From Pseudolabrys sp. (lineage in GTDB: Bacteria; Pseudomonadota; Alphaproteobacteria; Rhizobiales; Xanthobacteraceae): a stretch of DNA of 64,000 bases. Both the position numbers and the translations under genes were made by a program. The stretch lies in NCBI GenBank assembly GCA_030684935.1, contig JAUXXH010000058.1:1-64000 (forward strand), given 5' to 3'. Positions within the stretch are counted from its first letter, which is position 1; the number at the start of each line of letters is the position of its first letter. Shown one piece after another: positions 30,556-58,688 of the stretch. The notes under the pieces are model-generated. The model saw nothing but the letters and a program-made list of their open reading frames with translations. It made no database searches and was not told the origin of the DNA.

Positions 30556-31024
30556 ACGCCATGCCATCAGCGTGACCGTCAACGGCGTGCGCCACGACAA
30601 GACGGTCGAGGCGCGCATGTTGCTGAGCGATTTCATCCGCCACGAATTGCTGCTGTCCGGGACCCATGTCGGCTGCGAACACGGCGTCTGCGGCGCCTGC
30701 ACCATATGGTTCGACGGCTTCCCTGCGCGTTCCTGCCTGATGTTCGCGGTGCAGGCCGACGGCCACGACATCGCCACCGTCGAAGGCCTGGCCGACAACG
30801 ACAAGCTCAGCCCATTGCAGCAGGCGATGCACGAGGCGCACGGTCTGCAATGCGGCTATTGCACGCCCGGTATCCTGATGACCATGTCGCATTTTCTCGC
30901 CAGCAATCCCGCGCCCGACGAACAGGCGGTGCGCGAGGCGCTGTCCGGCAACCTGTGCCGCTGCACGGGATACCAGCACATCGTCGATGCGGTGTTGCTG
31001 GCGGCCGAACGGATGCGGGGCTGA
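30545..31024 (+). CDS. [2Fe-2S] small subunit of a xanthine dehydrogenase-family enzyme
   Basis: A 159-residue iron-sulphur subunit. The plant-type cluster motif is GTHVGCEHGVCGACTIW; the C-terminal cluster uses CGYCTPG and GNLCRCTGYQHI. The GTG at 30545 is chosen because GAGG precedes it by six bases and it starts VTTERHAISVTVNG, the normal N-terminus. It shuttles electrons from the molybdenum centre to FAD. Confidence 0.94.
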   Translation: MTTERHAISVTVNGVRHDKTVEARMLLSDFIRHELLLSGTHVGCEHGVCGACTIWFDGFPARSCLMFAVQADGHDIATVEGLADNDKLSPLQQAMHEAHGLQCGYCTPGILMTMSHFLASNPAPDEQAVREALSGNLCRCTGYQHIVDAVLLAAERMRG

Positions 31025-31029
31025 CCGGC

Positions 31030-33369
31030 ATGGAAACGCGATACTTCGGCGCTTCGGTCAAACGCAACGAAGATCAGCGGCTGCTCACCGGCCAGGCGCT
31101 GTTCATCGACGACATCGAACTGCCCGGCATGCTGCATGCCGCGGTGCTGCGCAGCGCGGTGGCGCATGGGCGTATCGTCACGGTCGATGTCTCGGCCGCG
31201 TTGAAACGCGAGGGCGTGGTCGCCGCCTATACGGCACAGGACCTTGGCGACTTCTGGCAGCCCGGCCCTTTGCTCGTTCCGCCGCCGCCGATCGAGGGCT
31301 CGGTGTTCAATCTGCGCACCCACGCCTGTCTCGCCAAGGACAAGGTCCGCTACGCCGGCGAGCCACTGGCCATCGTCATCGCCGCCGACCGTTACATCGC
31401 AGAGGATGCGCTCGCCGATATCGTCGTCGATATCGAGATCCTGCCGGCGCTGGTCGACCTCGAAGCGGCGTTGGCGAAAGGCGCCGCGCTGGTGCACGAG
31501 GATCTCGGCAGCAACATCGCCGCGCATATCCACCAGGGCAAAGGCGACTACGCCAGGGCCGCCTCCCGCGCCGACCACATCATCAAGCGGCGCTTTCTGT
31601 ACGAGCACGGCATCTCGTCGCCGATCGAGACCCGCGGCATCGTCGTGCAATGGGACGCACGCGGCGGCCAGCTGACCATGTGGGACACCACACAAGCGCC
31701 GGTTTTCGTTCGCAACGGGCTGGCGGCGGTGTTCGGCCTGTCCGAGCGGCAGGTGCGCGTCATCGCGCCCTTCGTCGGCGGCGGCTTCGGGCCGAAGATC
31801 ATGATGTTCTATCCGGAGGAACTGCTGCTGCCCTGGGCGGCGATGCAGCTCAACCGGCCGATCAAGTGGATCGAGGACCGGCTGGAGCATTTCGTCGCCA
31901 CCACGCATGAGCGCGGCCAGGTTCACGACTCCAAGATCGCGCTGACCAAAGATGGCAAGATCCTCGGCGTCAAGGATGTGTTCCTGCACGACAGCGGCGC
32001 CTACGATCCCTACGGGCTGACGGTGCCGATCAACAGCCAGTGCACATTGCTCGGGCCCTATGTCATCCCCGACTACGACAGCACTTTCACCTGCGTGTTC
32101 ACCAATCTGCCGATCGTCACGCCCTATCGCGGCGCCGGCCGCCAGCACGGCGTGTTCGTGATCGAGCGGCTGCTCGATATCGCCGCGCATGAACTGGGCA
32201 TCGATCCAGCGGAAATCCGCCGCCGCAATCTGATTCCACCCGACGCCTTCCCCTACGACAACGAGATCATCTACCAGGACTTCGCGCCGCTTTCCTATGA
32301 CAGCGGCGATTACGAACCGGTGCTGGACAAGGCGCTGAGCGCCATCGGCTACGCCGGCTTCAAGGACGAGCAGGCCGCCGCCCGCGCGAAGGGCAAGCAT
32401 CTCGGCATCGCGGTCGCCGCCTATGTCGAAGGCACCGGCATCGGCCCCTATGAAGGCGCGCGGGTGCAGGTGCAGGCCAATGGCCGCGTCAGCGTCGCCA
32501 CCGGCATCGGCACGCAGGGCCAGGGCCACTACACCGTGTTCGCGCAGATCGTCGCCGACCAGGTCGGCTGCGACGTGCGCGACGTCGATGTGGTGACCGG
32601 CGACACCGACCGCTTTCACTGGGGCGCCGGCACCTTCGCCAGCCGCGGCGCGGTGGTCGCCGGCAACGCCGTCAACGAAGCCTCCAAGGTGGTGCGGCAG
32701 AAGATTCTGACGCTGGCGGCCGAGCATTTCGAATGCGCCGAGGGCGACCTCGAACTCGGCCAGGGCCAGGTGTCGATCGTCGGCGTGCGCGGCCAGGCGA
32801 TCCGGCTGAGCGAACTGGCGCAGAAGGCCAATCCGATGCGCGGCGCGGTCAAGCCCGGCGCCGAGCCGGGTCTGGAGTCCACGCAATATTTCGGCCCGCC
32901 ATCGGGCGCCACGGCGTCGGGCGTGCATGCCATGATCGTCGAGGTGGATCCGGAAACGTTCACGCTGGCGATCAGGAAATACGTGATCGTCCATGACTGC
33001 GGCACGGTGATCAATCCGCTGATCCTGGCGGGACAGATCATCGGCGGCGCGGCGCAGGGCATCGGCAATGCGTTCTACGAGAAGCTGATGTACGACGACG
33101 CCGGGCAATTGCTGAATGCGTCGCTGGCCGATTACCTGTTGCCGACGTCGCTCGACGTGCCGCGCTTCGTGCTGGACCACACCGTAACGCCCTCGCCGCT
33201 CAATCCGCTCGGCATCAAGGGCGCGGGCGAGGCCGGCGCCATCCCGGCCGGGCCGTTGTTTGCGCAGGCGATCGAGGATGCCCTCGGCTTCAAGGCGAAG
33301 GGCATCGAACTGCTGGAGATCCCGCTGAGCCCGGCGCGGCTATGGGAATTGACGCAACAGGCTGGCTGA
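31030..33369 (+). CDS. Molybdopterin-binding large subunit of a xanthine dehydrogenase-family hydroxylase (form II CoxL-like)
   Basis: A 779-residue catalytic subunit with the Mo-MCD-type hydroxylase fold. It has GGGFGPK, PYRGAGR (365-371) and the catalytic Glu (about 734) in GAGEAGA. The PYRGAGR loop resembles the AYRGAGR motif of form II enzymes, not the AYxCSFR loop of true CO dehydrogenase, so it is probably an aromatic or heterocyclic hydroxylase. The ATG at 31030 is five bases after the small-subunit stop. It ends one base from a convergent hydrolase gene. Confidence 0.92.
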   Translation: METRYFGASVKRNEDQRLLTGQALFIDDIELPGMLHAAVLRSAVAHGRIVTVDVSAALKREGVVAAYTAQDLGDFWQPGPLLVPPPPIEGSVFNLRTHACLAKDKVRYAGEPLAIVIAADRYIAEDALADIVVDIEILPALVDLEAALAKGAALVHEDLGSNIAAHIHQGKGDYARAASRADHIIKRRFLYEHGISSPIETRGIVVQWDARGGQLTMWDTTQAPVFVRNGLAAVFGLSERQVRVIAPFVGGGFGPKIMMFYPEELLLPWAAMQLNRPIKWIEDRLEHFVATTHERGQVHDSKIALTKDGKILGVKDVFLHDSGAYDPYGLTVPINSQCTLLGPYVIPDYDSTFTCVFTNLPIVTPYRGAGRQHGVFVIERLLDIAAHELGIDPAEIRRRNLIPPDAFPYDNEIIYQDFAPLSYDSGDYEPVLDKALSAIGYAGFKDEQAAARAKGKHLGIAVAAYVEGTGIGPYEGARVQVQANGRVSVATGIGTQGQGHYTVFAQIVADQVGCDVRDVDVVTGDTDRFHWGAGTFASRGAVVAGNAVNEASKVVRQKILTLAAEHFECAEGDLELGQGQVSIVGVRGQAIRLSELAQKANPMRGAVKPGAEPGLESTQYFGPPSGATASGVHAMIVEVDPETFTLAIRKYVIVHDCGTVINPLILAGQIIGGAAQGIGNAFYEKLMYDDAGQLLNASLADYLLPTSLDVPRFVLDHTVTPSPLNPLGIKGAGEAGAIPAGPLFAQAIEDALGFKAKGIELLEIPLSPARLWELTQQAG

Positions 33370-33370
33370 T

Positions 33371-34141
33371 TCAGGCCAGGCTCAGGGCCCGCGCATGACG
33401 CGCCGTCACCGCCAGCAACTTTTCGGTCAGTCTGTCCGGCATCGACAGTTGCGGCGCGTGGTCGGTCTCCAGGCCATAAACGGCGGCGCAGCCGGCCAGC
33501 TCCTGCATCTTGCGTTGCAGCGGCAGATGCACCGAGCGGTCCTGCAGCGCCTCGACATAGGCGCGCGGGATGACGCCATAGTTGGCCGGGGTCAGCCGCA
33601 GCTTGCCGTGGCGTGGGCCTTCCGGTTGTGGCGTCAGCCGCGCCGCAGCGGCCGCGGCCAGAGCGGGATCGGCCATGTGGTAGAACACCTCCACCGCCGA
33701 AACCGGATCGATGGTCGAGGCGCCGTTGGCATAGGTCAGCCGCGCATGGGCGCCGCGCATCCACGGCTCAAGGTGCCGGTCGTAGAATTCCAGCACCGCC
33801 ATGCCATCCGGCAGCATGAAAGCGCAGAGATAGATGGCGAGCGCAATCCGCGCCGGCCGCAGTTCGCAAACCTGCGAAACGGTGACGCCGCCCATGCTGT
33901 GGCCGATCAGGATGACCGGCCCGGTGGTCCCGTCGACCAGGCCGGTCACCGTCTCGACATAGCTGTCGAGCGTCACCTGATCCGGCGGCGTGTCGTCGTG
34001 GCCGTCGCCCGGCAGATCGGCGGCGATCACAACGTGCCCGGCCGCCTGAAGCCGCGGCACGATGGTGTCCCAGGCCCAAGCGCCCTGCCAGGCGCCATGA
34101 ACAAGGATGAACGTGTAACGCGGTTTGGCGGCGCCGCTCAC
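33371..34141 (-). CDS. Alpha/beta hydrolase (esterase-type)
   Basis: A 256-residue alpha/beta hydrolase close to the plant-like methylesterase/hydroxynitrile lyase group. The oxyanion region is FILVHGAWQGAWAW, the nucleophile elbow LIGHSMGG, and the late histidine lies in LETDHAPQLSMPD. The start is a GTG at 34141 overlapping the preceding oxygenase stop (GTGA). The long open frame upstream is coding-shadow only. It may cleave an ester or amide made by the oxygenase; unproven. Confidence 0.85.
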   Translation of the reverse strand: MSGAAKPRYTFILVHGAWQGAWAWDTIVPRLQAAGHVVIAADLPGDGHDDTPPDQVTLDSYVETVTGLVDGTTGPVILIGHSMGGVTVSQVCELRPARIALAIYLCAFMLPDGMAVLEFYDRHLEPWMRGAHARLTYANGASTIDPVSAVEVFYHMADPALAAAAAARLTPQPEGPRHGKLRLTPANYGVIPRAYVEALQDRSVHLPLQRKMQELAGCAAVYGLETDHAPQLSMPDRLTEKLLAVTARHARALSLA

Positions 34142-35115
34142 TTGTAGGTTCGCTTGTACATCTCGCGCATGTGCTGATCGACCGTGACCGGCGGATATTT
34201 CGGCTGTTCGCCGGGCGCCAGGCAGGTCGGAATGCATTTCACTTCGAAGCTGTAATTGCCGCCATAGAAAAACGGCACCGAATAGCGCTCCTTGCCGGAG
34301 GCGTTGACGACGCGGTGGACGGTCGAGCGGTAGCGGTCGTTGGTCCAGCGCGCGATCATGTCGCCGAGATTGACGACATAGGTGCCGGGCAGCGGCTCGG
34401 CGTGGATCCAGTTGCCGCTGTTCTGGTCCCAGACCTGCAGGCCGCCGATCTCGCCCTGCCGCAAAATTGTCAGCCCGCCGAAATCGGTATGGGCGCCGGC
34501 GCCCTTCTGGGTCGGATCGCCCTGCGGCGATTGCGGCGGATAATGCAGCAGCCGAACCGTCGCCATCGCATCCTTGTTGAAGCCGTCGAAGTAGTTTTCC
34601 GGCAGGTCGAGCGACAGCGCCATGCCGCGCATCATGGTCGCGGACAAACCCATCATGACGTCGAGATAGCGCAGCATCACCGGACCGAAATTGGGCAGCT
34701 GCGGCGGCCACTGGTTGGCGCCATGATTGAACATGCCGGCCAGCACCCGCGGGTCGTCCGGCGCATGCTCGGGGCCAATGTAATAGCCTTCCTTCAAGTC
34801 GGGCGGCGCGCCGGGCTCCAGCGTCTGGCCCTGCATCGCCTCGTAGCCACGGTTTGCCTTTGATTTCGATTTGTCGACCTCGGCCTTCTGCTCGGCCGGC
34901 AACGCGAAGAACGCCGCCGCTTCGGCGAACACGTCTTGCATCAGATCCTCGGGCACGCCGTGGTTCTTGATGTAGAAAAAGCCCTTGTCGATGCAGGCGG
35001 CGCGCAGCGCAGCGCCAACCGCCTGGCGGTCGGCCGGATCGGCACTGTTGAGGCCGCCGATATCGATGACCGGCAGCGAAGCCACGGAAACCTTCACCGC
35101 TTCGAGTGCCTTCAT
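34138..35115 (-). CDS. 2-oxoglutarate/Fe(II) oxygenase, isopenicillin N synthase-like
   Basis: A 325-residue non-haem iron oxygenase. The iron triad His209-x-Asp211 (GAHTDFGG) and His267 (STVHRVV) and the 2-oxoglutarate-binding Arg277-Tyr-Ser279 are intact, so it is probably active. The N-terminal DIOX_N part (PVIDIGGL, GFFYIKNHGVP) is present. Bacterial relatives hydroxylate small molecules. It is the first gene of a two-gene unit with the alpha/beta hydrolase and divergent from a LysR gene. A sigma-54-like element lies upstream (35169-35184). Confidence 0.92.
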   Translation of the reverse strand: MKALEAVKVSVASLPVIDIGGLNSADPADRQAVGAALRAACIDKGFFYIKNHGVPEDLMQDVFAEAAAFFALPAEQKAEVDKSKSKANRGYEAMQGQTLEPGAPPDLKEGYYIGPEHAPDDPRVLAGMFNHGANQWPPQLPNFGPVMLRYLDVMMGLSATMMRGMALSLDLPENYFDGFNKDAMATVRLLHYPPQSPQGDPTQKGAGAHTDFGGLTILRQGEIGGLQVWDQNSGNWIHAEPLPGTYVVNLGDMIARWTNDRYRSTVHRVVNASGKERYSVPFFYGGNYSFEVKCIPTCLAPGEQPKYPPVTVDQHMREMYKRTYK

Positions 35116-35230: not shown

Positions 35231-36124
35231 TTGGAACTGCGCCAGCTCCGTTATGCCCTGTCGGTCGCCAAGCAGCGCAGCTTCACCCGCGCGGCGACGG
35301 TATTGAACGTCTCGCAGTCCGCAGTCAGCGAGCAGGTCGCGCTGCTGGAGACCGAGATCGGCTTCCCGCTGTTCCGCCGCACGCCGCGCGGTATCGACAT
35401 CACCGAACGCGGCCGCACCTTCCTGTATGAGGCCGAGCGCGTCATCGGCGATGTGCTCAGCCTGTCGGACAGCGCCCGGCGGCTGCGCGGCGCGCCGTCC
35501 GAGACACTGACGCTCGGCATCGGATCGGGCATGGCGCAGATCTTCATGCCGCGGCTGTTCCGCGATCTGCCCAAGACCCTGCCGGGCGTCAGGCTGGAAA
35601 TCCTCACGGCGCCGACCCGCAACATTTTCAATGACTTGCACGAAGAACGGGTCGATGCCGGAATCGCCATTGAATCCGATCCGGAACGGGTGCCGGCCGG
35701 CATTCTGATCGAGCGGCTGACCCAGGCCGACATGGCCCTGATCGTGCCGCCGGCGCACCGGCTGGCGCGATCGCGCAAGGCCATCGACATCGGCAGCCTG
35801 GTCAGCGAGCCGATTGTCATGAGCGAACTGACCGTCGGCTATGGCCAAATCGTGCTGTCGCTGTTCACCGATCTCGGCATCCGCCCCAATATCCTGGCCA
35901 TCGCCGACAATATCGAGACCATGAAGACGATCGTTCAATCCGGCGCCGGAATCGCCATCGTGCCGCGCGCCAGCGTCGAGACCCAAGCAGCCCTTGGCGT
36001 CATCAAGGTGCTGCCTATTGTTCCGGCACGCGCGGTCACCTTCAGCCTGTTTCGGCGGCGGCAGCCGCTGTCGCGCCGCAAGGAAGGCTACATTGCGACC
36101 GTGCGCGACCTGCTCAAGGACTAG
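35231..36124 (+). CDS. LysR family transcriptional regulator
   Basis: A 297-residue LysR regulator. The N-terminal winged helix ELRQLRYALSVAKQRSFTRAATVLNVSQSAVSEQVALLE is canonical and fixes the start as TTG at 35231; no ribosome-binding site is visible. The C-terminal effector domain is of the periplasmic-binding type. It is placed between the divergent oxygenase gene and the hyuA operon, 109 bases ahead of hyuA, and is the likely ligand-responsive regulator of one or both. Confidence 0.92.
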   Translation: MELRQLRYALSVAKQRSFTRAATVLNVSQSAVSEQVALLETEIGFPLFRRTPRGIDITERGRTFLYEAERVIGDVLSLSDSARRLRGAPSETLTLGIGSGMAQIFMPRLFRDLPKTLPGVRLEILTAPTRNIFNDLHEERVDAGIAIESDPERVPAGILIERLTQADMALIVPPAHRLARSRKAIDIGSLVSEPIVMSELTVGYGQIVLSLFTDLGIRPNILAIADNIETMKTIVQSGAGIAIVPRASVETQAALGVIKVLPIVPARAVTFSLFRRRQPLSRRKEGYIATVRDLLKD

Positions 36125-36233: not shown

Positions 36234-38318
36234 ATGCCGGCCACCCACACTCATCTGCGTATCGGCATCGATACCGGCGGCACCTTCACCGATATCGTCT
36301 GCGTCGACAGCGCCACCGGCGCGATGCGCGTCACCAAGGTCGCCAGCACGCCGTCCAATCCCGCGGTCGGGCTGGTGCGCGGTGTCAACGCCATCCTCGA
36401 AGCCAGCGGCGCCACCGTCGACGACCTCGCCGGACTGGCGCACGGCACCACCGTTGCCACCAACGCCCTGCTGCAAGGCGAAATCGACGGCCTCGGCCTG
36501 ATCGTCACCGAAGGCTTCCGCCATATTCTTGAAATCGCGCGGCAGGCGGTGCCGGACGGCTACGGCAACTCCTATTTCTGGGTGAAGCCGGAACGCATCG
36601 TGCCGCTGCGTCATGTCCGCGAAGCCGGCGGCCGGCTGAATTACCTCGGCCAGGAACTGCGGTCGCTCGACGAGGCCAGTGTACGCGACGCGGCGCGGTA
36701 TTTCCGCGATCAGGGCATCAAGACCATCGGCGTCTGCCTGATGCATTCCTACGCCAATGCCACGCATGAACAGCGCGTCGCCGAGATCGTGCGGCAGGAA
36801 TATCCGGACTGCACGGTGTCGCTGTCCTGCGAGGTGCTGCCCGAGTACCGCGAATACGAGCGCACCGTGACGACTTTGGTCGATGCTTTCGTCAAGCCGC
36901 ACATGAGCCGCTATCTTGCGCGCATCCGCGACGAACTGGGCGAAGGCCTGCGCGAGAAGCCGTTTCTGGTCATGCAGTCGAGCGGCGGCGTCGCCAGCCC
37001 CGACCAGGTGATGCGCAAGCCGATTACCACCGCGCTGTCGGGACCGGCCGCCGGCGCGCTCGGCAGCGCCGTGATCGCCGAAATGGCCGGATTTCCCAAC
37101 GTCGTCACGCTCGACGCCGGCGGCACCTCGACCGACCTGTGCCTGATCGAGAACGCCAAGCCGCATGTCACCAATGGTGGCTCGGTCGGGCCGTTCCCGG
37201 TGCGCATTCCGATGATCGACATCGAGACCATCGGCACCGGCGGCGGCTCGATCGCCTGGATCACCCGCGAAGGCCATCTCAAGGTCGGGCCGCGCAGCGC
37301 CGGCGCCGAACCGGGACCGATGTGCTATCCGAACGGCGGCGACGAGCCGACCATCACGGACGCCAACTTGGTGATGGGCCGCATTCCGCCGGCGCTGATC
37401 GGCGGCGGCATTGCGCTGAACGCCGAGCGCGCCCGCGCCGGCCTTGCGGCCTTGGCGGCCAAACTGCCGGGCAAGATGACTGCCGAGCAACTGGCCGAAG
37501 GCATTGTCGAGATCGCCAACTGGAACCAGGCCAACGCCATCCGGCAGATGACCATTCAGCGCGGCATCGACCCGCGCGCCTTCGCGCTGCTGTCGTTCGG
37601 CGGCTCCGGCCCGGCGCAGTCGCCAGCCGTGATGCAGTTGATCGGCATGAAGGCCTGCATCGTGCCGCCCAATCCCGGCAACCTTTCGGCGTTCGGATTG
37701 CTCGCGGTCGACTGGCGCACCGACCAGATCGTCACCAAGGTGATGCACGAGGACGCCATCGATCTCACCGCTGTCGCCGCAATCTATGCCGGCCTGGAGC
37801 GCGACGCGGTCGCGACGCTGGAGCGCGACGGCATCGAGCCGGCGCGCATCCGCACACTGCGCGAAGGCGACATCCGCTACGCCGGGCAATCGATGGAAGT
37901 GCGGGTGACGGCGCCGTCCGGCCCCATTGACGATGCCTTTGCAGACAGGCTGATCGATGCCTTCCACGCCGCGCATCTGAAGACCTTCGGCTACAACTAC
38001 GCCGGCAAGCAGAAGGTCGAGCTGGTCAATTTCAGCGTGTCCGGCTTCGGCGTCATCGACCGGCCCAGCATTCCGAAGCTCGATCTCGCGGCGGCAACGT
38101 CGCCGCAGCGGTCGCAGCGAAAAGTCTATTTCAGCGGCGCCTTCATCGACACGCCGGTCTACCAGCGCGCTTCGCTCGGCGCCGGCTTCACGCTCGACGG
38201 ACCCGCAGTGGTCGAGGAATTCGGCTCGACCACGGTGGTGTTTCCCGGCCAGCGTCTCGAGGTCGATCCGCACGGCATTCTGATCGTGCGGCCGGTTTCT
38301 TCGGGGATTGCCCCATGA
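36234..38318 (+). CDS. hyuA: Hydantoinase/oxoprolinase family protein, A subunit (HyuA)
   Basis: A 694-residue member of the ATP-dependent N-methylhydantoinase/5-oxoprolinase/acetone carboxylase A family. The N-terminal actin-like phosphate loop IGIDTGGTFTDIV and the second loop VTLDAGGTSTDLCLI bind ATP. It opens a lactam or cyclic imide with ATP hydrolysis, as a complex with HyuB. ATG 36234 is preferred (GAGG upstream); an in-frame ATG at 36204 lacks one. The stop overlaps hyuB by four bases. Confidence 0.92.
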   Translation: MPATHTHLRIGIDTGGTFTDIVCVDSATGAMRVTKVASTPSNPAVGLVRGVNAILEASGATVDDLAGLAHGTTVATNALLQGEIDGLGLIVTEGFRHILEIARQAVPDGYGNSYFWVKPERIVPLRHVREAGGRLNYLGQELRSLDEASVRDAARYFRDQGIKTIGVCLMHSYANATHEQRVAEIVRQEYPDCTVSLSCEVLPEYREYERTVTTLVDAFVKPHMSRYLARIRDELGEGLREKPFLVMQSSGGVASPDQVMRKPITTALSGPAAGALGSAVIAEMAGFPNVVTLDAGGTSTDLCLIENAKPHVTNGGSVGPFPVRIPMIDIETIGTGGGSIAWITREGHLKVGPRSAGAEPGPMCYPNGGDEPTITDANLVMGRIPPALIGGGIALNAERARAGLAALAAKLPGKMTAEQLAEGIVEIANWNQANAIRQMTIQRGIDPRAFALLSFGGSGPAQSPAVMQLIGMKACIVPPNPGNLSAFGLLAVDWRTDQIVTKVMHEDAIDLTAVAAIYAGLERDAVATLERDGIEPARIRTLREGDIRYAGQSMEVRVTAPSGPIDDAFADRLIDAFHAAHLKTFGYNYAGKQKVELVNFSVSGFGVIDRPSIPKLDLAAATSPQRSQRKVYFSGAFIDTPVYQRASLGAGFTLDGPAVVEEFGSTTVVFPGQRLEVDPHGILIVRPVSSGIAP

Positions 38319-40198
38319 ATGCGCATTCCAAGGATTTCCCCTGGCCGACCGCGCCCGACCTGCCGGCGCGTCACGTCGATCCGATCGTGCTGCAGATCGT
38401 CGAGGGCACGCTGAACTCGATCGAGGCCGAGATCGAATACGCCATCGAGCGCACCGCGCGTTCCCCGATGATCCGCGAGGCGCACGATTACCGCGTCGGC
38501 CTGTTCGACCGCTACTGCCGCAAGCTCACCGGCCGCTCCTATTCGGCGATGCCGAACGCGGTAGTGCGCGACTTCCCGCCCGACACCATGAAGCCGGGCG
38601 ACGTGTTCCTGATGAACGACACGTACCTGACCGAAGGTTCGATCGGCCACCTGCCCGATCTGTGCAGCACCGTGCCGGTGTTTCATGACGGCAAGGTGGT
38701 CGCCTACATCCAGGCCTTCGGACATCACGACGACATCGGCGGCCGGGTGCCCGGCTCGATGCCCGGCACCGCCGCCACGGTATTCGAGGAAGGCCTGGCA
38801 ATCCCGCCGATCAAGCTTTACGACGCCGGCGTCAAGAACGAGGCCGTCTTCACCATCGTCAAGCGCAACACCCGCGTACCCGACATGCTGGCCGCCGATC
38901 TCGATTCGGAGGTGCAGGCCTGCGTCATGGGCGCACGCCGCATGGCCGAACTGTTCGAGCGCTTCGGCGCCGAGACGGTGGAGGCCTGCTTCCAGGCCAT
39001 CCTCGACAAGTGCCGCGACATCTTCCGCCGCGAACTGCTGCCGAAGATCGCCGACGGCACCTACGCATGGGAAGATTACGTCGAGCACGACGGCATCACC
39101 GATCCGAAGCTGCACAAGCTCGCCATCACCATGACCAAGAAGGGCGAGCGCATCACGCTCGACTTCACCGGCACCGATCCGCAGTCGACGGGCCCGATCA
39201 ACTGGCCGGCCGACTATGCCGGCGGCGCCTTTTTGATCAAGTGGATCGCGCCGATCCTGCGCAATCTCGCCGACACCCCCGAGCGCGCCGCGGAAATCCT
39301 GGTCAACGAGGGAGTCTGCGAAGTCTTCGACATCGTGTTCCCGCCCAAGGGTACGCTGATCACGCCGGAATGGCCGGCCGCCACCAATGCGCGGTCCTTC
39401 GTGCTGCTGCGCTGCCTCGGCCTGCTCGCCGGCGTGGTGGCGCAGGCGGTCGACGGCCGCATCCCGGCCGATCAGGAAACCATCCGCTACACCGGCTTCT
39501 ATGGCGTCGGCCCGGACGGCAAGTCGTTCCTGTCGCGCGAGGTTCTCGGCGGCGGCTCCGGCGGGCGCTATTACGCCGACGGCAGCGACGCCATCCACAT
39601 CGTGCCGGATTCGCGCAACCAGCCGGCCGAATTCACCGAAACCCGTTTCCCGATGCTGGTGGAGAAACTGGCGCTGCGCACCGACTCCGGCGGTGCCGGG
39701 ATGCGGCGAGGCGGGCTCGGCTATGAAAAACACTACCGCGCGCTGGTCGATTGCCGCACCATCGTCACCGCCGACCGCGTGCGGCTCGGCTGTTATGGCG
39801 TCAATGGCGGCAAGCCGGGCACGCCGTTCCTGGTGACCGTCGATGCGGACGGCACGCCGCGCGATCTCGGCGGCCTGGTCGACGGCGAGCCGGTACTGGC
39901 CGGGCAGATCGTCCGCGTCGTCACCACCGGCGGCGGCGGCTGGGGCGATCCGCTGGAACGCGAGCCGGAACTGGTGCAGCGTGACGTGCTGGACGGCAGG
40001 GTATCGCTCACTGCGGCGCGCGACGATTACGGCATCGTGCTGACCGCCGACACCTTCGCCATCGATACGGCCGCGAGCATCGCCCTGCGCGGGAAGATGC
40101 AGGAAGCGCGGCCGAAGCCGGCCGCGATGATCGATCGCGGCGACGGCTACGAAAAGATGATCCGCGGCGAATTCAAGCCGTGGAAGCGAAGCAATTAA
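38315..40198 (+). CDS. hyuB: Hydantoinase/oxoprolinase family protein, B subunit (HyuB)
   Basis: A 627-residue HyuB subunit, close in length to the family's usual 550-650. It has DPIVLQIVEGTLNSIEAEIEYAIERTARSP, LMNDTYLTEGSIGHLPDL, HHDDIGGRVPGSMP and TDSGGAGMRRGGLGYEKHY, the metal- and substrate-lining motifs. Translation is coupled to hyuA. The pair forms a heteromeric ATP-dependent cyclic amidohydrolase. The substrate cannot be predicted from sequence; a ring-opening amidohydrolase follows 22 bases downstream. Confidence 0.92.
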   Translation: MNAHSKDFPWPTAPDLPARHVDPIVLQIVEGTLNSIEAEIEYAIERTARSPMIREAHDYRVGLFDRYCRKLTGRSYSAMPNAVVRDFPPDTMKPGDVFLMNDTYLTEGSIGHLPDLCSTVPVFHDGKVVAYIQAFGHHDDIGGRVPGSMPGTAATVFEEGLAIPPIKLYDAGVKNEAVFTIVKRNTRVPDMLAADLDSEVQACVMGARRMAELFERFGAETVEACFQAILDKCRDIFRRELLPKIADGTYAWEDYVEHDGITDPKLHKLAITMTKKGERITLDFTGTDPQSTGPINWPADYAGGAFLIKWIAPILRNLADTPERAAEILVNEGVCEVFDIVFPPKGTLITPEWPAATNARSFVLLRCLGLLAGVVAQAVDGRIPADQETIRYTGFYGVGPDGKSFLSREVLGGGSGGRYYADGSDAIHIVPDSRNQPAEFTETRFPMLVEKLALRTDSGGAGMRRGGLGYEKHYRALVDCRTIVTADRVRLGCYGVNGGKPGTPFLVTVDADGTPRDLGGLVDGEPVLAGQIVRVVTTGGGGWGDPLEREPELVQRDVLDGRVSLTAARDDYGIVLTADTFAIDTAASIALRGKMQEARPKPAAMIDRGDGYEKMIRGEFKPWKRSN

Positions 40199-40220
40199 TC
40201 CCGTGAAAGAGGAATAACGT

Positions 40221-41315
40221 ATGGCCATCGAAGTCGCCAAAGTCGAACTGAAAACGGTGCAGGATGCCTCCGGCATGGAGGAATGCATCGCCAAGGGCCA
40301 GTTCACCGCCGATCAGGTGATCGCCGTGATCGGCAAGACCGAAGGCAATGGCGGCGTGAACGACTTCACCCGCATCCTGGCCGATCAGGGCTTCCGCCGC
40401 GTGCTGATGAAGCACGGTAAGCGCAGCGAGGCCGAGATCCACAACGTCCCGATGGTGTGGTCGGGCGGCTGCGACGGCGTCATCACGCCGCACGCCACCG
40501 TGTTCGCGCGCAACGACAAGACCGGCCCGGCCGACAAGGCGCGGCTGGTCATCGGCACCTCGCTCAGCGCCGAACTGCTACCGGAAGATATCGGCCGGCT
40601 GGCGATGGTGGAGAAGGTGGCGGCGGCTGTGAAGGCGGCCATGAAGGACGCCGGCATCACCGACCCGAAGGATGTGCACTACGTCCAGACCAAGACGCCG
40701 CTGCTGACCATCGACTCGGTGCTTGATGCCGAAAGCCGCGGCCAGCATGTCGCCTGCGAAGTCCACGAGTCGATGGGTGTGTCGAACGGCACCACCGCGC
40801 TCGGCATCGCCGTCGCGCTCGGCGAGATCGCCATGCCGAAGGCCGAGGAGATCTGCAAGAACCTCGACCTCTTTTCGTCGGTGGCGTCGTGCTCCTCCGG
40901 CGTCGAACTGACGCAGGCGCAGATCGTGCTGCTCGGCAACAAGCCGGGCGCCGGCGGCCGCTACCGCATCGGTCACGCCGTCATGAGGGACGCCCTCGAC
41001 ATCGACGGCATCTACGACTCGATCCGCAGTGCCGGCCTGGAGCTTCCCGAGCGCCCCCGCGCCAGCGACCTCAACGGCAAGGTCGTCAACTGCTTCATGA
41101 AATGCGAGGCCGACCGGCGCGGCACGCTGCGCGGACGGCGGCAGATCATGCTCGACGATTCCGACGTGTCCTGGCACCGCCACATCAAGGCGGCGGTCGG
41201 CGGGGTGGCGGCGACCGCGATCGGCGACGCGGCGGTGTTCGTGTCGGTCGACGCCATGCACCAGGGCCCGCAGGGCGGCGGACCGGTGATCGCCATTATT
41301 GACGCAGGGGAGTGA
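40221..41315 (+). CDS. Ring-opening amidohydrolase of the cyanuric acid hydrolase/barbiturase (AtzD) family
   Basis: A 364-residue enzyme of the rare family that hydrolyses cyanuric acid or barbituric acid. Its threefold internal repeat carries three Lys-Ser pairs: Lys39 ([12 protein letters not shown]) with Ser81 (WSGGCDG), Lys158 (QTKTPLL) with Ser226 (CSSGVE), and Lys294 (MKCEADRRG) with Ser342 ([10 protein letters not shown]). The metal-binding tail QGPQGGGPV is present. AAGAGG precedes the ATG. Only two activities are established in the family and many members have unknown substrates. Company with HyuAB, an importer and an amidase suggests a cyclic amide. Confidence 0.9.
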
Positions 41316-41328
41316 ACCGGGGCGAGAC

Positions 41329-41344
41329 CGGCACGGTGTTTGCT
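41329..41344 (+). promoter_or_regulatory. Near-consensus sigma-54 promoter before the importer genes
   Basis: CGGCACG-GTGT-TTGCT matches the RpoN consensus TGGCACG-N4-TTGCW except for the first base, with exact GG-GC spacing. Predicted start near 41355. It would let nitrogen limitation boost the transporter and amidase genes independently of hyuA. Confidence 0.65.
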
Positions 41345-41422
41345 TGCAAATGACCTGAATTCCGGCGGTCGGCCGGATCACGCGTGAAGCATAACAGTTC
41401 GTCAAACCAAGGAGTTACTGAA

Positions 41423-42409
41423 ATGGCCCTGTTTGGACGCAATGCCCGCAGAATGCTGGTCGGGGCGCTGGCGGCGCTGGCCGTCTCCGCCCTCCCCGCC
41501 GCCGCGCAGGACAAGGTCAAGGTCGGCGTGTTCCCGATCTCGTCGTCGCTGCCTTATTTCGTCGCCATCGACCTCGGCTACTTCAAGGAACTCAACATCG
41601 AGCCGGAGACCATCCGGCTGATGGGCGGGCCGCCGAACGTGGCCGCGCTGATGACCAACCAGATCGAGGTCTCGGCGGTGCTGGTGACGCTGGAAGGTCT
41701 GAACGCCGCGCTCAAGAAGCCGGGCGTCGCGCAATACATCGCCATGCACAGCCAGAACGTCGAATACAAGATGGAGCAGTTCGTGGTGCGCGAAGGCCTG
41801 CTCGACAAGGTCAAGTCGCTGAAGGACTTCAAGGGTCTCAAGCTGCTGTCGGCGCCGGGGCCGGCCAACCTGAACACCGCCAAAGGCATTCTCGCCAAAG
41901 CCGGGCTGAAGGAAGGCGACTACACCATCGACCAACTCGACATGGGCCAGCACGTCAACGCCATCAAGGCGGGGACCTTCGACGGCGGCTACACGCTGGA
42001 GCCGAGCGCGACCATCATGCAGAACATCGGCGCCGGCAAGACCTTAGAGGCCGGCGTGATCGCCAAGTACGTTCTCGGCGACCCGAAGGCCGACGCCTTT
42101 GCGGCCGGTTGCGCATTCTCCGCCGACTTCATCGCCAAGCGTCCGGACGTCGCCAAGCGTTTCGCGCAAGCTTGGGCCAAGGCGATCGACTACATCAACA
42201 AGAACCCGAAAGAGGCGCGCAAGCACCTCGCCAAGAACACCATGACGCCCGACAACATCGTCGATACCGTGCCGATGCTGGGCTACATCATGACCAAGGA
42301 CATGAGCGCCAAGCAGCTCGGCGACCTGCAGAAGTTCGCCGACTTCGGCCACGAGATTGGTGTCGTGCCGGAGAAGATCGACGTCAAGAAGTACCTGCAC
42401 GCGTTCTGA
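41423..42409 (+). CDS. ABC transporter substrate-binding protein, NitT/TauT family
   Basis: A 328-residue periplasmic protein with a signal peptide ending ALPAAAQ. The body opens DKVKVGVFPISSSLPYFVAIDLGYFKE, typical of NMT1/SsuA-like proteins. The ATG at 41423 follows AAGGAG by eight bases; the longer frame has no such site. It is first gene of a full importer (binding protein, ATPase, permease), unlike the orphan at 1236. It presumably captures the cyclic amide degraded by the neighbouring enzymes. Confidence 0.92.
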   Translation: MALFGRNARRMLVGALAALAVSALPAAAQDKVKVGVFPISSSLPYFVAIDLGYFKELNIEPETIRLMGGPPNVAALMTNQIEVSAVLVTLEGLNAALKKPGVAQYIAMHSQNVEYKMEQFVVREGLLDKVKSLKDFKGLKLLSAPGPANLNTAKGILAKAGLKEGDYTIDQLDMGQHVNAIKAGTFDGGYTLEPSATIMQNIGAGKTLEAGVIAKYVLGDPKADAFAAGCAFSADFIAKRPDVAKRFAQAWAKAIDYINKNPKEARKHLAKNTMTPDNIVDTVPMLGYIMTKDMSAKQLGDLQKFADFGHEIGVVPEKIDVKKYLHAF

Positions 42410-42434
42410 AACAGCGACTGACGGGGAGTATCCC

Positions 42435-43268
42435 ATGACCGTGGCACAGCACGCCCTGCGACCCGATCCGTCGGGCGTGCCGTCCACGGCGCCGGGGGTC
42501 GGCTTCAGCAAGCGCCCGCACGTCACCATCCGCGGGCTGAGCAAACGCTTCGACACCGCGGTCATCTACGACAACTTCGACCTCGACATTCCGCGCGGCG
42601 AGCTGATCTCGGTGTTCGGCCCGAACGGCTGCGGCAAGAGCACGCTGATCAACATGATCGCCGGGTTGATCCCGGTGGATGCCGGCGAAATCCTGTTCGA
42701 TGGCATGCGGCTCGATGAGATCAAGTTCGGCTACGTGTTCCAGAATTACCGCGAGGCGCTGTTTCCCTGGATGCGCGCCTTCGACAACATCGCCTACCCC
42801 TTGAAAATGATGAATGTCCCGGCCGCGGAGCGCAAGGCGCGCACCGAGAAGCTGGTGGCGCACCTGGGCGTCAAGATCGACCTCAATCTCTATCCGTACA
42901 AGATGTCCGGCGGCCAGCAGCAGCTGGTCTCGATCATGCGCGCGCTGGTAGTCGAGCCGGAAATCCTGTTCCTCGACGAGCCGTTCTCGGCGCTCGACTA
43001 CGAGATGACGCTGTTCATGCGCGATCAGTTGCAGAAGCTGTTCATGGAGAGCGGTACCACCATGGTGCTGGTGTCGCACGACCTCGAGGAGGCGGTCTAT
43101 CTCGCCGACCGAGTGCTGCTGTTGTCGCGCCATCCGGCGCGGGTCGCCGACTTCAAGGTCGTCCGCTCGGCCCGCCCGCGCACCGACGCGACGCTGTCCG
43201 ATGCCGATTTCGTGCAGACCAAGGCGCATTGCCTCGACGTATTCCAGCGTGAGGTACGGCGCGCATGA
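42435..43268 (+). CDS. NitT/TauT-type ABC transporter ATP-binding protein
   Basis: A 277-residue ATPase with Walker A GPNGCGKST (about 62-70), Q-loop FQNYREALFPWM, a signature SGGQQQLVS and Walker B LFLDEPFSALDY. The N-terminal 30 residues before the domain are an extension of no clear role. The ATG at 42435 follows GGGGAG. Overlaps the permease start by four bases. Confidence 0.92.
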   Translation: MTVAQHALRPDPSGVPSTAPGVGFSKRPHVTIRGLSKRFDTAVIYDNFDLDIPRGELISVFGPNGCGKSTLINMIAGLIPVDAGEILFDGMRLDEIKFGYVFQNYREALFPWMRAFDNIAYPLKMMNVPAAERKARTEKLVAHLGVKIDLNLYPYKMSGGQQQLVSIMRALVVEPEILFLDEPFSALDYEMTLFMRDQLQKLFMESGTTMVLVSHDLEEAVYLADRVLLLSRHPARVADFKVVRSARPRTDATLSDADFVQTKAHCLDVFQREVRRA

Positions 43269-44023
43269 ACACCAAACGACTCGAGGTATTCCTGCCGCTG
43301 ATCGGCGTCGCCGGTCTGGTGGCGATCTGGTCGGGCGCAACTTTCCTCAAGCTGGTCGATCCCGTGCTGCTGCCATCGCCGGCCTCGACCTTCGACGCCT
43401 TCTGGAAGGGGATGGATGGCCGCCTCGGCTTCGACTTCGCCAAGACGGTCTATCGCACCGCGATGGCCACTGTCATCGCCGCGGTGATCGCCATTCCGCT
43501 CGGCATCGTGCTTGGTGCGTCGGAGCGGGTCTATCGTTCGCTCGAATTCGTCATCGACTTCTTCCGGTCGACTCCGGCGTCGGCGATGTTTCCGCTGTTC
43601 CTGGTGCTGTTCGGCGTCGGCGACGAAACCAAGATTTCGGTGGCCGCCTTCGGCGCCATTCTGGTGATCCTGTTCAACGTCGCCTACGGCGTCATGAACG
43701 CGCGCAAGACCCGCCTGCTCGCCGCTAAGGTGATGGGCGCGTCGCGGCTGCGCGTGCTGTTCGACGTGATGCTGCTGGAGTCGCTGCCGCAGACCTTCGT
43801 CGGGCTGCGCAACGGCGTGTCGCTGGCGCTGGTCATCATCGTCGTCGCCGAGATGTTCATCGGCTCGCAGGACGGCCTCGGCCACAGCGTATTCGAGGCG
43901 CAGCAACTGTTCGACATGCCGCGGATGTATGCAGCGATCTTCGCCGCCGGCGCGCTCGGCTACGGGCTCAATCTGCTGTTCCTGCTGATCGAGCGCCGCT
44001 TCGTGCACTGGTCGGGGAAGTAA
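43265..44023 (+). CDS. NitT/TauT-type ABC transporter permease
   Basis: A 252-residue inner-membrane permease of the SsuC/TauC type, about six hydrophobic helices. The coupling-loop region AKVMGASRLRVLFDVMLLESLPQTFVGLRNGVSLAL (EAA-like) contacts the ATPase. The ATG overlaps the ATPase stop (ATGA). A palindromic repeat separates it from the amidase gene. Confidence 0.92.
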   Translation: MNTKRLEVFLPLIGVAGLVAIWSGATFLKLVDPVLLPSPASTFDAFWKGMDGRLGFDFAKTVYRTAMATVIAAVIAIPLGIVLGASERVYRSLEFVIDFFRSTPASAMFPLFLVLFGVGDETKISVAAFGAILVILFNVAYGVMNARKTRLLAAKVMGASRLRVLFDVMLLESLPQTFVGLRNGVSLALVIIVVAEMFIGSQDGLGHSVFEAQQLFDMPRMYAAIFAAGALGYGLNLLFLLIERRFVHWSGK

Positions 44024-44043
44024 CTCACACACCCTCTCGATTG

Positions 44044-44128
44044 TCATCGCCGGGCTTGACCCGGCGATCCCGTTCAGGCGGACACTGTACCCGCCTGAGC
44101 GAGATGGCCGGGACAAGCCCGGCCATGA
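44044..44128. repeat. Palindromic repeat (GCCGGGCTTGACCCGGC family), copy 1
   Basis: Arms at 44044-44069 and 44103-44128 are inverted copies of a TCATNGCCGGGCTTG-containing 26-base unit, and each arm is itself a near-palindrome around CTTGAC. The middle forms another hairpin (CAGGCGG with CCGCCTG). A second copy is at 52272-52380. Confidence 0.8.
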
Positions 44129-44147
44129 CAAGCCAAAGGAAAACGAG

Positions 44148-45560
44148 ATGCCTGACGAAACCCTGACCCGGAAATCCGCCGGCGAACTGGCGGCACTGAT
44201 CGCCGCGCGCGCGGTGACGCCGGTGGAAATTCTCGACGCCCATCTGGCGGCGATCGAGCGGATCAACCCGGCGCTCAACGCCATCGTCACGCTCGATGCG
44301 GAGCGGGCGCGGGCCACCGCGGTCGAGGCCGGCGCGGCCGTCATGCGTGGCGACCCGCTCGGGCCGCTGCATGGCCTCCCGGTCGGCATCAAGGACATCA
44401 CGCTGACCGCCGGCATCCGCACCACCTATGGCTCGCCGCTGTTCAAGGATTTCGTACCGGACGAAGACGCCGAAGTGGTGCGCCGCCTGAAATCGGCCGG
44501 CGCTATCATTCTGGCGAAGACCAACACGCCGGAATTCGGCGCCGGCGCCAACACGGTCAATCCGGTGTTCGGCGCCACCCGCAATCCATGGAATCCGGCA
44601 CTCAGCCCGGCCGGTTCGTCCGGCGGCTCGGCCGTCGCGGTGGCGACCGGCATGCTGCCGCTGGCGCAGGGCACCGACTTCGGCTGCTCGATCCGCATGC
44701 CGGCGGCGTTCTGCGGCATTGTCGGCATTCGCCCGACGCCGGGCCTGACGCCGAATTACCCGATGCCGCTGGCCTGGGATCCCGGACAGGTGAACGGCCC
44801 GCTGGCGCGCAACGCGACCGACGCCGCGCGCATGCTCGATGCCATGGTCGGCTTCAGCCGCATCTCGCCGATTTCGGTGGCACCGCCGTGGAAAAGCGCA
44901 CTGGCCGAGGTCGAGGCAACGAAGGACGCCAAGGGCCTGCGCATTGCCTATGTGTCGGACATTGCCGGCATTGGCGTCGACAGCGAAATAGACGCCATCT
45001 GCCGCAAGGCGGCGCTGGCGCTGCGCGATGCCGGCGCGACAGTGGATGAGATCGAGTTCGACGCCTCCGAGGGCAAGGTGCCGTATCAGGCCTGGCGCGG
45101 GCTCTGGATGGTCGGCCAGCAATTCGCCAACCTCGACCGGCTGGAAGACTTCGGCCCCAATCTCAAAGGCAACGTGAAGGCCGGGCTGAAGGTAACGCCG
45201 CTCGACTTCGCCACGGCCGAGAAGACGCGCGCGGCTCTCTTTCTTCGCTTCAAGGACCTGTTCGATCGTTACGACCTGTTGCTGACTCCGGCCTCCCCGG
45301 TGAAGCAGTTTCCGGTCGATCAGAATTTTCCGACCGAGGTCAACGGCAAGAAACTCGACAACTACACCGACTGGATCGCCAGTTCGTTCCTGATCACGCT
45401 GATGAGCCTGCCGGGCGGCAGCGCGCCCGCCGGATTCGCCAGCGACGGCCTGCCGGTCGGCATGCAGATTGTCGGCGCGCGCTTCGAGGAGCCGAAGATC
45501 CTCGGCCTCGCCAAGCTGCTGCACGCGGCGAGCGGCGTCGGCTGGCCACCGGCGCTGTGA
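44148..45560 (+). CDS. Amidase (amidase signature family)
   Basis: A 470-residue amidase. The Ser-cisSer-Lys triad is visible: Lys82 (PVGIKD), Ser157 (PAGSSGGS) and nucleophile Ser181 (GTDFGCSIRMPA; Cys180 replaces the usual Gly). It hydrolyses a linear amide to acid and ammonia. AAAGGA lies seven bases before the ATG. It is last in the hyuAB-AtzD-like-importer unit, where it could finish nitrogen release after the ring is opened (inference). Confidence 0.92.
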   Translation: MPDETLTRKSAGELAALIAARAVTPVEILDAHLAAIERINPALNAIVTLDAERARATAVEAGAAVMRGDPLGPLHGLPVGIKDITLTAGIRTTYGSPLFKDFVPDEDAEVVRRLKSAGAIILAKTNTPEFGAGANTVNPVFGATRNPWNPALSPAGSSGGSAVAVATGMLPLAQGTDFGCSIRMPAAFCGIVGIRPTPGLTPNYPMPLAWDPGQVNGPLARNATDAARMLDAMVGFSRISPISVAPPWKSALAEVEATKDAKGLRIAYVSDIAGIGVDSEIDAICRKAALALRDAGATVDEIEFDASEGKVPYQAWRGLWMVGQQFANLDRLEDFGPNLKGNVKAGLKVTPLDFATAEKTRAALFLRFKDLFDRYDLLLTPASPVKQFPVDQNFPTEVNGKKLDNYTDWIASSFLITLMSLPGGSAPAGFASDGLPVGMQIVGARFEEPKILGLAKLLHAASGVGWPPAL

Positions 45561-57834: not shown

Positions 57835-58679
57835 TGGACTCCCCCGACAGAAATTTTTCTTGATGGTTGCGCCCGCACCGAGGCGAGATCGGCGGCCGGC
57901 TTGGCCGTTTCGGCTTCCGCCTTTTCGGCCCGCGCCTTGATCTGCGGACCCCAGAGGCCAGCGATCGGCATCGGGATCAGCATAAACAGATGCTCGAGGA
58001 GGCCGAGCGCCAGCAGCGAGGCCATCAGGATATAGACAGTGACATCGTAGTCGCTGGCGCCGTCGCTGAAGGCGCGCCCGACGAGCCAGGCCGTGACGGC
58101 GGCCGAGCCCAGCGCGGAGACCGGAAACAGCGCATTCATCGGCCGCTGCCGGAAGTAGCTGCGCAGATGCCGCAGCGGCGGCGGCAGCAGTTCGGCGTTC
58201 AGCGTCGGCACGCCGAGGAAAAGATTGAGCTTCGAGCTCAGCCGCATCACCCACAGCATAGCGTAGAGCCCGATGGCGAACGTATCCCCGCCACCGGTCG
58301 CCGCCACGATGGCGGCAAAACCCGCCACCAGCATCAGTTCATGGTAGATGATGGTCTCGGTCGCATAGCGGACACGCCGCGCACCGGTGCAGCCCGGCGG
58401 ACACGGCGTCTTGCGCGGCCCGGTGATGTAGCCGGTCAGAAACGTGGTCTCGACAAAGCCCCACACCGCCAGCACGCAGGCGAAGGTCACATAGGCGTCC
58501 CGTGCCGTCGCCTGCCCGCCTTGCGCCAGCGCCCACAGCGCGACGATGAGGCAGACCGCAGAGATCGCAACGCTGACGCGGTAGCTGCGCCGCGATAGCC
58601 CGACAGCATACAGAATGATTCCCGTGCTGAACCACCACAGCAGCAGCGCGTACAGTGCGGGCAGCGCGATCTGCGACAT
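57831..58679 (-). CDS. puhE: Photosynthetic complex assembly protein PuhE
   Basis: A 282-residue membrane protein with about seven hydrophobic helices, a DUF3623 family member. [18 protein letters not shown] and [30 protein letters not shown] are hallmark stretches. PuhE modulates bacteriochlorophyll synthesis and assembly in Rhodobacter. It lies 9 bases after acsF and is translationally coupled to hemA. Confidence 0.94.
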
Positions 58680-58688
58680 CGTCGTCCG

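Follow-up and report, generated by a model that had tools for sequence, protein, structure and literature searches.

A candidate oxidative pyrimidine operon in Pseudolabrys sp.

The oxidative pyrimidine pathway, with its barbiturase and ureidomalonase (Soong et al. 2001, 2002, as cited in PMC3758960 and PMC4051656), is described as a rare route (PMC3758960). Other described systems that resemble the locus reported here are the cyanuric acid hydrolases AtzD and TrzD (PMC3758960, PMC4051656), the two-subunit N-methylhydantoinase and caprolactamase CapAB (PMC8453981) and, for some relatives of the locus, the oxamic transcarbamylase AllFGH of E. coli with the carbamate kinase AllK (PMC11326118). 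We analysed a stretch of 64,000 nucleotides from Pseudolabrys sp. (assembly GCA_030684935.1, contig JAUXXH010000058.1, positions 1 to 64,000), hereafter the window. It holds an AtzD/barbiturase-family enzyme in one run with a HyuAB-type enzyme, an ABC importer and an amidase. Judged from its sequence, this locus is probably a nitrogen-controlled operon for oxidative pyrimidine catabolism, from uracil through barbiturate to malonate.

A barbiturase of the same clade as the solved enzyme 5hwe is shared with the described pathway. The window likewise has a molybdenum hydroxylase and an amidase nearby, and some relatives carry malonate-activating genes. The window differs in being proteobacterial, in adding HyuAB, a NitT/TauT-type ABC importer, a LysR regulator and a sigma-54 promoter, and in having Asp for Ser at position 346 of the ring-opening enzyme. 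Pathways of this kind have been described before (cited in PMC3758960), and what is new here is HyuAB. No gene-level account of the pathway was evident from the titles and abstract openings in the literature searched. The main features are as follows.

29671..30555, plus strand: CoxM-type FAD subunit of a molybdenum hydroxylase, the proposed uracil dehydrogenase (FAD_binding_5, CO_deh_flav_C)
30518..31024, plus strand: CoxS-type [2Fe-2S] subunit (Fer2_2)
31030..33369, plus strand: CoxL/xanthine-dehydrogenase-type molybdenum subunit (MoCoBD_1, MoCoBD_2, Ald_Xan_dh_C)
35231..36124, plus strand: LysR regulator (HTH_1, LysR_substrate), with relatives (40% identity or more) at 28 of the 80 related loci
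36234..38318, plus strand: HyuA, ATP-binding subunit of the hydantoinase/oxoprolinase type (Hydantoinase_A, 297 bits)
38315..40198, plus strand: HyuB, hydrolytic subunit (Hydantoinase_B, 458 bits)
40221..41315, plus strand: predicted barbiturase of the AtzD/barbiturase family, group VI-like (Amido_AtzD_TrzD, 463 bits; identity, tree and residues)
41329..41344, plus strand: putative sigma-54 (-24/-12) promoter 5' of the importer, CGGCACGGTGTTTGCT, 11 of 12 consensus bases
about 41423..42409, plus strand: NMT1/THI5-like periplasmic binding protein of the ABC importer (PF09084, 54 bits; PF13379, 50 bits; searched from the upstream start 41384)
about 42435..43268, plus strand: ABC importer ATPase (ABC_tran, 109 bits; searched from the upstream start 42357)
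43265..44023, plus strand: ABC importer permease (BPD_transp_1, 72 bits)
44148..45560, plus strand: amidase-signature hydrolase, proposed ureidomalonate (N-malonylurea) hydrolase (PF01425, 345 bits)

An earlier sequence-only reading of this DNA had named the LysR, HyuA, HyuB, AtzD-family, importer and amidase genes. All are present on the plus strand at, or next to, the positions claimed for them. As a gene set, its picture of a likely nitrogen-scavenging operon that combines import with two types of ring-opening enzyme and an amidase is borne out. HyuA overlaps HyuB, and the ATPase overlaps the permease, by 4 bases, as in an operon. For comparison we used related loci, namely the best 80 of 110 barbiturase relatives in named genome contigs (76-92% identity). 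These were ascertained via barbiturase and are mostly contigs of metagenome-assembled genomes, some of them plainly misnamed (a "Klebsiella pneumoniae" bin, L059). A simple GC-frame script for open reading frames missed the barbiturase gene in three loci (L045, L083, L101); tblastn placed it in all 80. The complete run of hyuA, hyuB, barbiturase, binding protein, ATPase, permease and amidase recurred in the same order in 13 of these loci, which places the seven-gene arrangement above chance. Rhodoplanes elegans DSM 11907 (L067) and R. tepidamans DSM 9987 (L042) are among the carriers of LysR, hyuAB, barbiturase and importer genes.

The ring-opening enzyme

The protein encoded at 40221-41315 was 65.6% identical to the solved barbiturase 5hwe, against 40.5-44.6% for three cyanuric acid hydrolases. 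A PDB search returned 5hwe ("Barbiturase") at 503 bits and six other family members at 187-303 bits, five of them named cyanuric acid amidohydrolase and one ring-opening amidohydrolase. In a tree of 112 rows, made by a quick search with Shimodaira-Hasegawa-like approximate likelihood ratio test (SH-aLRT) support but no bootstrap, and with several long branches outside the barbiturase clade, the window enzyme shared a 92-row clade (SH-aLRT 100) with 5hwe and with two sequences from Actinobacteria. This clade was separate from the cyanuric acid hydrolase rows, which carry the residue set discussed below. The window's own assembly (G000, 89.6% complete) gave a single AtzD-family match.

Five specificity positions (195, 321, 325, 345 and 346 in AtzD numbering) are Arg-Thr-Arg-Gly-Gly (RTRGG) in cyanuric acid hydrolases and Asn, His, Lys, Val and Ser or Ala in barbiturase (Peat et al. 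2013, PMC3758960). The window enzyme has Asn189, His319, Lys323, Val343 and Asp344 (NHKVD), four of the five being as in barbiturase; none of Arg195, Thr321, Arg325, Gly345 and Gly346 is present. It differs from AtzD and TrzD in these residues and in its low identity, and resembles them in belonging to the same Pfam family and in six aligned catalytic or active-site columns (PMC3758960, PMC4051656). These columns, Lys42, Arg54, Ser85, Ser233, Lys296 and Ser344, were identical in the window enzyme, AtzD and 5hwe, in a check that needed two numbering offsets and left out the column intended for Lys162, which landed on a conserved Gln. By identity, tree and residues the enzyme looks like a barbiturase rather than a cyanuric acid hydrolase. 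Clustering of the enzyme with true AtzD would have counted against the sequence-only reading; it groups with barbiturase instead, and on this point that reading is not refuted.

HyuAB and its tie to barbiturase

HyuA of the window carries the ATP motifs DTGGTFTD, DAGGT and GAEPGP (motifs after PMC8453981), and HyuAB shares its two subunits and ATP-binding motifs with N-methylhydantoinase and CapAB as described there. The best solved relative of HyuA was N-methylhydantoinase 7hk5, at 476 bits. Unlike CapAB, the window proteins scored far under the CapA and CapB cut-offs (514 and 205 bits, against 1000 for each), and HyuA lay in a barbiturase-linked clade of its own.

HyuA or HyuB with at least 60% identity was found in 33 of the 80 loci, which we call HyuAB-type (L097, with a 40% HyuA outside the clade, was excluded, hence 33 and not 34). 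Of the 45 loci in which the barbiturase gene is flanked by 6 kb or more on both sides (full-flank loci), 25 lacked HyuAB of the window type. A HyuA tree, from which six rows were dropped as short or broken and six loci as duplicates, gave one clade of 35 rows with a support of 98, consisting of 32 proteobacterial-type rows, two actinobacterial rows and one further genome, G200; 16 other HyuA and two from Rokubacteria fell outside. Since the proteobacterial rows were mostly fetched via barbiturase, the unbiased evidence for the tie comes from searches of 385 genomes and of a plasmid collection. The genome searches, here and elsewhere in this analysis, scored the top 2-5 candidates of each genome, and the genome sample overlaps the loci (G122:C137 and L080 are one contig; L178 from G289 and L175 from G376 contain L094 and L075 sequence). 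HyuA with at least 70% identity occurred in four of the 385 genomes, in three with barbiturase in the operon and in one without; the next matches reached at most 49%. The top HyuA matches among the 72,556 plasmid-collection records were from Embleya (52.8%) and Nonomuraea (52.5%), the third record having 42.0%. These are also the two records with a barbiturase match above 60%, and both carry CoxL and CoxM within about 35 kb. By these searches and the tree, HyuAB forms a separate clade with a link to barbiturase, seen in Proteobacteria and in two Actinobacteria.

The sequence-only reading held that a tie between HyuAB and AtzD-family activities is unusual. For the literature this stands: no description of a HyuAB-barbiturase partnership, and no account pairing barbiturase with a hydantoinase, was found in a search that covered few subscription papers, so that novelty is unproven; in what was covered, "barbituric acid" and "hydantoinase" co-occur in work on diketopiperazines. 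For genomes it does not stand, as the link is common (33 of the 80 loci, and both actinobacterial records with a HyuA of 53%).

The genome with HyuA and no barbiturase was G200. Its operon (L154) contains HyuA, HyuB, CoxM, CoxL, an NCS2 permease, an amidase of a second type and a DeoR regulator, which is the layout of G122 minus barbiturase. No AtzD/barbiturase-family match was found in this one assembly (94% complete), while the family was present in seven co-searched genomes, which had been picked as carriers. Because G200 keeps the operon of HyuAB, molybdenum enzyme, permease and amidase, HyuAB may itself open the ring there. G200 is a single case: a search of 398 genomes of the phylum for more HyuAB without barbiturase gave the window's own genome alone at E 1e-200, and three other genomes of the order of G200 gave none. 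Barbiturase without this HyuAB in 25 of the 45 full-flank loci, and HyuAB with no barbiturase found in G200, indicate that neither enzyme depends on the other. This mutual independence is compatible with two ring openers whose substrates overlap or complement each other, but also with a HyuAB that has a different job.

The molybdenum hydroxylase

In Rhodococcus the oxidative pyrimidine pathway has a uracil/thymine dehydrogenase. This is a molybdenum enzyme, and the step from uracil to barbiturate needs an enzyme of such a type. The molybdenum hydroxylase at 29671-33369 (CoxMSL), absent from the sequence-only reading, ends 2.9 kb upstream of hyuA, and we think that it belongs to the pathway. 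It is of the required enzyme type and is proposed as the candidate dehydrogenase. The closest solved relatives of its large subunit were CoxL 8uem and quinoline 2-oxidoreductase 1t3q; for CoxS (30518-31024), all NCBIfam matches (small subunits of glyceraldehyde and xanthine dehydrogenases, among others) were below cut-off.

CoxL proteins with 72-78% identity lay near barbiturase in L040, L041, L044, L052 and L080, all of the HyuAB type. Three of these (L041, L052, L080) had the order hyuA, hyuB, coxM, coxL region, NCS2 permease, barbiturase, with a CoxM relative of 57-60% identity inside the barbiturase operon. Among the 385 genomes, CoxL with at least 72% identity occurred in three (the window's own, G200 and G122), in each case within the HyuAB operon or adjacent to it; the match that ranked next (61%) was in G376, where barbiturase lies 1.2 Mb off. 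Molybdenum-cofactor genes, recognised by eye as FdhD, MobA, MobB and MoeA-like, occur at 18080-24897 of the window, near the hydroxylase.

Genomic neighbourhood of barbiturase relatives

Neighbours were counted by tblastn with at least 40% identity over half of the query, their names being taken from cluster representatives. A cytosine-deaminase-like amidohydrolase was near barbiturase in 20 of the 80 loci. Uracil phosphoribosyltransferase (UPRT) was found in 6, DUF1688 in 4 and GTP cyclohydrolase II in 3; we take the latter two to be URC4 and URC1. An NCS2 permease (its top-scoring model being uracil permease, under the cut-off) and an NCS1 permease were found in 3 loci each, malonyl-CoA decarboxylase in 7 and malonyl-CoA synthase in 4. 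An amidase of the window type or of the second type started at most 250 bp after barbiturase in 14 loci.

Controls were 30 stretches of 20 kb each, set at round coordinates in 9 genomes. Any pyrimidine gene was present in 22 of the 45 full-flank loci and in none of the 30 controls (Fisher p 8e-7), and in 6 of the 20 full-flank loci of the HyuAB type (p 0.002 against controls). Malonate genes were found in 5 of 45 loci against none of 30 (p 0.07) and carbamoyl genes in 6 of 45 against none of 30 (p 0.04); by themselves these two counts are weak. Cytosine deaminase and malonyl-CoA decarboxylase were commoner in loci without HyuAB, and no usable family separating HyuAB loci from the rest (methylmalonate genes, for example) was found among the neighbour families of the 80 loci.

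Two operons without HyuAB can be read almost as a pathway from their predicted genes. In L091 (Bradyrhizobium sp. U87765) an NCS2-family permease, an Amidohydro_3 gene, barbiturase, an amidase, malonyl-CoA decarboxylase and malonyl-CoA synthase follow one another in this order. In L048 the order is barbiturase, carbamate kinase, AllH, AllF-like, AllG, malonyl-CoA decarboxylase and an AMP-binding enzyme of the malonyl-CoA synthase cluster, and the run ends in genes that by eye are TRAP-like transporter genes. Recognisable operons with barbiturase-type genes are present at 80 loci, mostly in Proteobacteria; the route has been called rare (PMC3758960).

In L036, L040, L063 and L107, GTP cyclohydrolase II, DUF1688 and UPRT were clustered beside the barbiturase operon (the cyclohydrolase being cut in L063). 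Such clusters are presumably URC-type uracil genes, and perhaps two uracil routes lie within one island at these loci.

Importer and sigma-54 elements

In the window alone, sigma-54 matches were at chance level (11 found against 13.3 expected with at most 2 mismatches). The gap between barbiturase and the binding protein reached at least 10 of the 12 sigma-54 consensus bases in 23 of 33 cases, the window included, and at least 11 of 12 in 14; for those 23 gaps, at most 1.5% of 200 shuffles scored as well. The element was missing from the other 10 gaps. None of 19 gaps between LysR and hyuA, the window included, reached 10 of 12, and the element at 36193 itself had 8 of 12. Of the two sigma-54-like elements in the sequence-only reading, the one at 41329 is therefore retained and the one at 36193 rejected; the conserved site precedes the importer, not hyuA. 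Sigma-54 fits nitrogen control. The importer looks nitrogen-regulated and, given this promoter, would probably be induced under nitrogen limitation, while LysR may govern the enzymes. A search for the importer ligand among solved structures gave two weak PDB matches and no more.

A perfect match to the sigma-54 consensus, TGGCACGATGGTTGCA, was also seen at 1143-1158 (minus strand). It points away from a plus-strand open reading frame, starting at 1236, that resembles a NitT/TauT-type binding protein.

The proposed pathway and its alternatives

Gene content, the clade and residues of barbiturase, the conserved operon, the neighbours and the sigma-54 site come from sequence; all substrates and reactions, nitrogen control and, above all, the role of HyuAB are what we infer from them. 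The importer would take up a pyrimidine base or barbiturate, probably under nitrogen limitation. CoxMSL would convert uracil to barbiturate, which barbiturase would open to ureidomalonate. HyuAB would be a dedicated ATP-dependent ring-opening partner for the product of the molybdenum enzyme, or for a variant that is poor for barbiturase, such as 5-methylbarbiturate from thymine. The amidase would split ureidomalonate into malonate and urea, and urease, which is present in the window's own genome (G000:C32), would release ammonia from urea. The sequence-only reading had left the substrate as not yet known. This is now narrowed, as the enzyme groups with barbiturase and the neighbours of its relatives suggest uracil or cytosine degraded via barbiturate to malonate. 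A cluster for an unknown cyclic amide becomes a directly testable pathway. There are candidate genes for the conversion of uracil to barbiturate and for the hydrolysis of ureidomalonate, and HyuAB and AllFGH are two enzymes that might serve as alternatives.

Several observations weigh against this pathway. Asp occupies position 346 of the window enzyme and of every one of the 88 proteobacterial-type rows, where the three actinobacterial-type barbiturases compared have Ser or Ala (5hwe [Ser], L108, L109); because 5hwe has Ser there, the specificity of the window clade could be shifted from that of barbiturase. The NCBIfam equivalog NF052395, named "cyanuric acid amidohydrolase", matched the window protein at 451.6 bits, above its cut-off of 360. 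It gives the solved barbiturase 478 bits, likewise above the cut-off, so that neither the model nor annotations made with it can separate the two activities. The neighbour families were selected for counting after the loci had been viewed. A pyrimidine gene was rarer in HyuAB-type full-flank loci (6 of 20) than in the others (16 of 25; p 0.04), which makes the support from context weaker for the window's own architecture, and malonyl-CoA synthase or decarboxylase was found in just one of those 20 loci. The deaminase and NCS2 neighbours score under NCBIfam cut-offs, and the NCS2 gene after barbiturase in L103 is closer to the xanthine permease model. CoxL with at least 65% identity was near barbiturase in no more than 5 of the 80 loci. 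In the window's own genome, at 89.6% completeness, neither a malonyl-CoA synthase nor RutA scored above cut-off, and a search made without a positive control found no cytosine deaminase of the neighbour type.

One alternative keeps the oxidative pyrimidine pathway and has HyuAB act elsewhere, for example on the importer's ligand or as a carboxylase-like enzyme, while sharing the operon. We hold this to be possible rather than likely, and its odds overlap those of the pathway itself. The 25 full-flank loci without this HyuAB, some of them looking like nearly complete pathways (L091, L048), are in its favour, and the family also includes carboxylases. It does not account well for the G200 operon, where HyuAB, CoxMSL, an NCS2 permease and an amidase are present, no barbiturase was found and no other ring opener is visible, nor for the HyuA clade accompanying barbiturase into two actinobacterial records.

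Scavenging of another cyclic amide or imide (hydantoins, dihydropyrimidines or lactams), such as the sequence-only reading proposed, would have the relative of barbiturase adapted to some other ring; this is unlikely. It would agree with N-methylhydantoinase as the best solved relative of HyuAB, with the Asp at 346 that separates this clade, with the weakness of both importer ligand matches and with the scarcity of pyrimidine genes near HyuAB-type loci. A dihydropyrimidinase/hydantoinase-like amidohydrolase was also near barbiturase in 3 of the 80 loci (cluster c41; the models show Amidohydro_1 and Amidohydro_3, and the finer name was given by eye). Permease, deaminase, UPRT and malonate genes nevertheless recur beside barbiturase, and the molybdenum hydroxylase and NCS2 permease between hyuB and barbiturase in L041, L052 and L080 are left unexplained by hydantoins or lactams.

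Cyanuric acid catabolism, in which the AtzD-family enzyme would open cyanuric acid to biuret and the amidase would act on biuret or allophanate, has the NCBIfam equivalog name on its side, as well as the amidase AtzE, whose substrate in the Pseudomonas ADP pathway is biuret (PMC5806882), but we rejected it as very improbable on residues (barbiturase-type at 195, 321, 325 and 345, and Asp, not Gly, at 346), tree (a clade with barbiturase, support 100) and context (recurring pyrimidine and malonate genes), the amidase also being well under the cut-offs of AtzE (207.6 against 425.75 bits) and allophanate hydrolase (169.2 against 511.05).

A possible second ring opener and a possible AllFGH side branch

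AllF-like and AllG genes were near barbiturase in L048 (9357-20453), L046, L058, L103 and L079, with AllH in L046, L048 and L103 and carbamate kinase in L046, L048 and L058. Malonyl-CoA decarboxylase and synthase-type genes were present in L048 and L058. These genes are outside the window's operon. Homologues of the E. coli AllFGH-AllK system (PMC11326118) follow barbiturase in L046 and L048, and the substrate proposed for them, ureidomalonate, is a one-carbon homologue of oxalurate. In L048 and L058 they are followed by the malonyl-CoA genes, and their function there is argued by analogy. The AllFGH-type genes of L046, L048 and L103 may instead serve phosphorolysis of ureidomalonate, with malonamate and carbamoyl phosphate as products, in analogy to oxalurate in E. 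coli. Such a transcarbamylase branch for ureidomalonate could yield ATP. The AllG gene of the window's own genome (G000:C5) is not assigned to the pathway, as it lies in a different neighbourhood with no reference gene at 40% identity in 18 kb (L153).

We tentatively put forward a wider proposal, which is rather doubtful as a whole. The HyuAB clade would be a second, ATP-dependent opener of barbiturate or 5-methylbarbiturate, unrelated to the AtzD fold and replacing barbiturase in some bacteria. With CoxMSL and the amidase it would complete an oxidative pyrimidine pathway that has genes assigned to its steps, in Proteobacteria as well as Actinobacteria, and in a side branch of the relatives an AllFGH-type transcarbamylase and carbamate kinase would gain ATP from ureidomalonate.

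Other genes in the window

Two open reading frames sit on the opposite strand between the molybdenum hydroxylase and LysR.

33371..34120, minus strand: alpha/beta-hydrolase-like open reading frame, probably accessory (recognised by eye from sequence; relative near barbiturase in 2 of 80 loci)
34138..35115, minus strand: 2-oxoglutarate/Fe(II) oxygenase, probably accessory (DIOX_N, 2OG-FeII_Oxy)

The best PDB match of the oxygenase was an ethylene/succinate-forming enzyme at 247 bits. A role as thymine-7-hydroxylase was rejected, thymine dioxygenase scoring 157 bits and being outscored by five named oxygenases. Because of this low score, and of a relative near barbiturase in just 2 of the 80 loci, the oxygenase is left as accessory.

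A PotABCD-like ABC transporter at 45699-49625 on the minus strand converges on the amidase gene; in related loci only scattered ATPase matches to it were seen. At 56620-63654 the window has a PucC-family gene (PF03209) and, by eye, 5-aminolevulinate (ALA) synthase and AcsF-like genes, from which the host is probably an anoxygenic phototroph.

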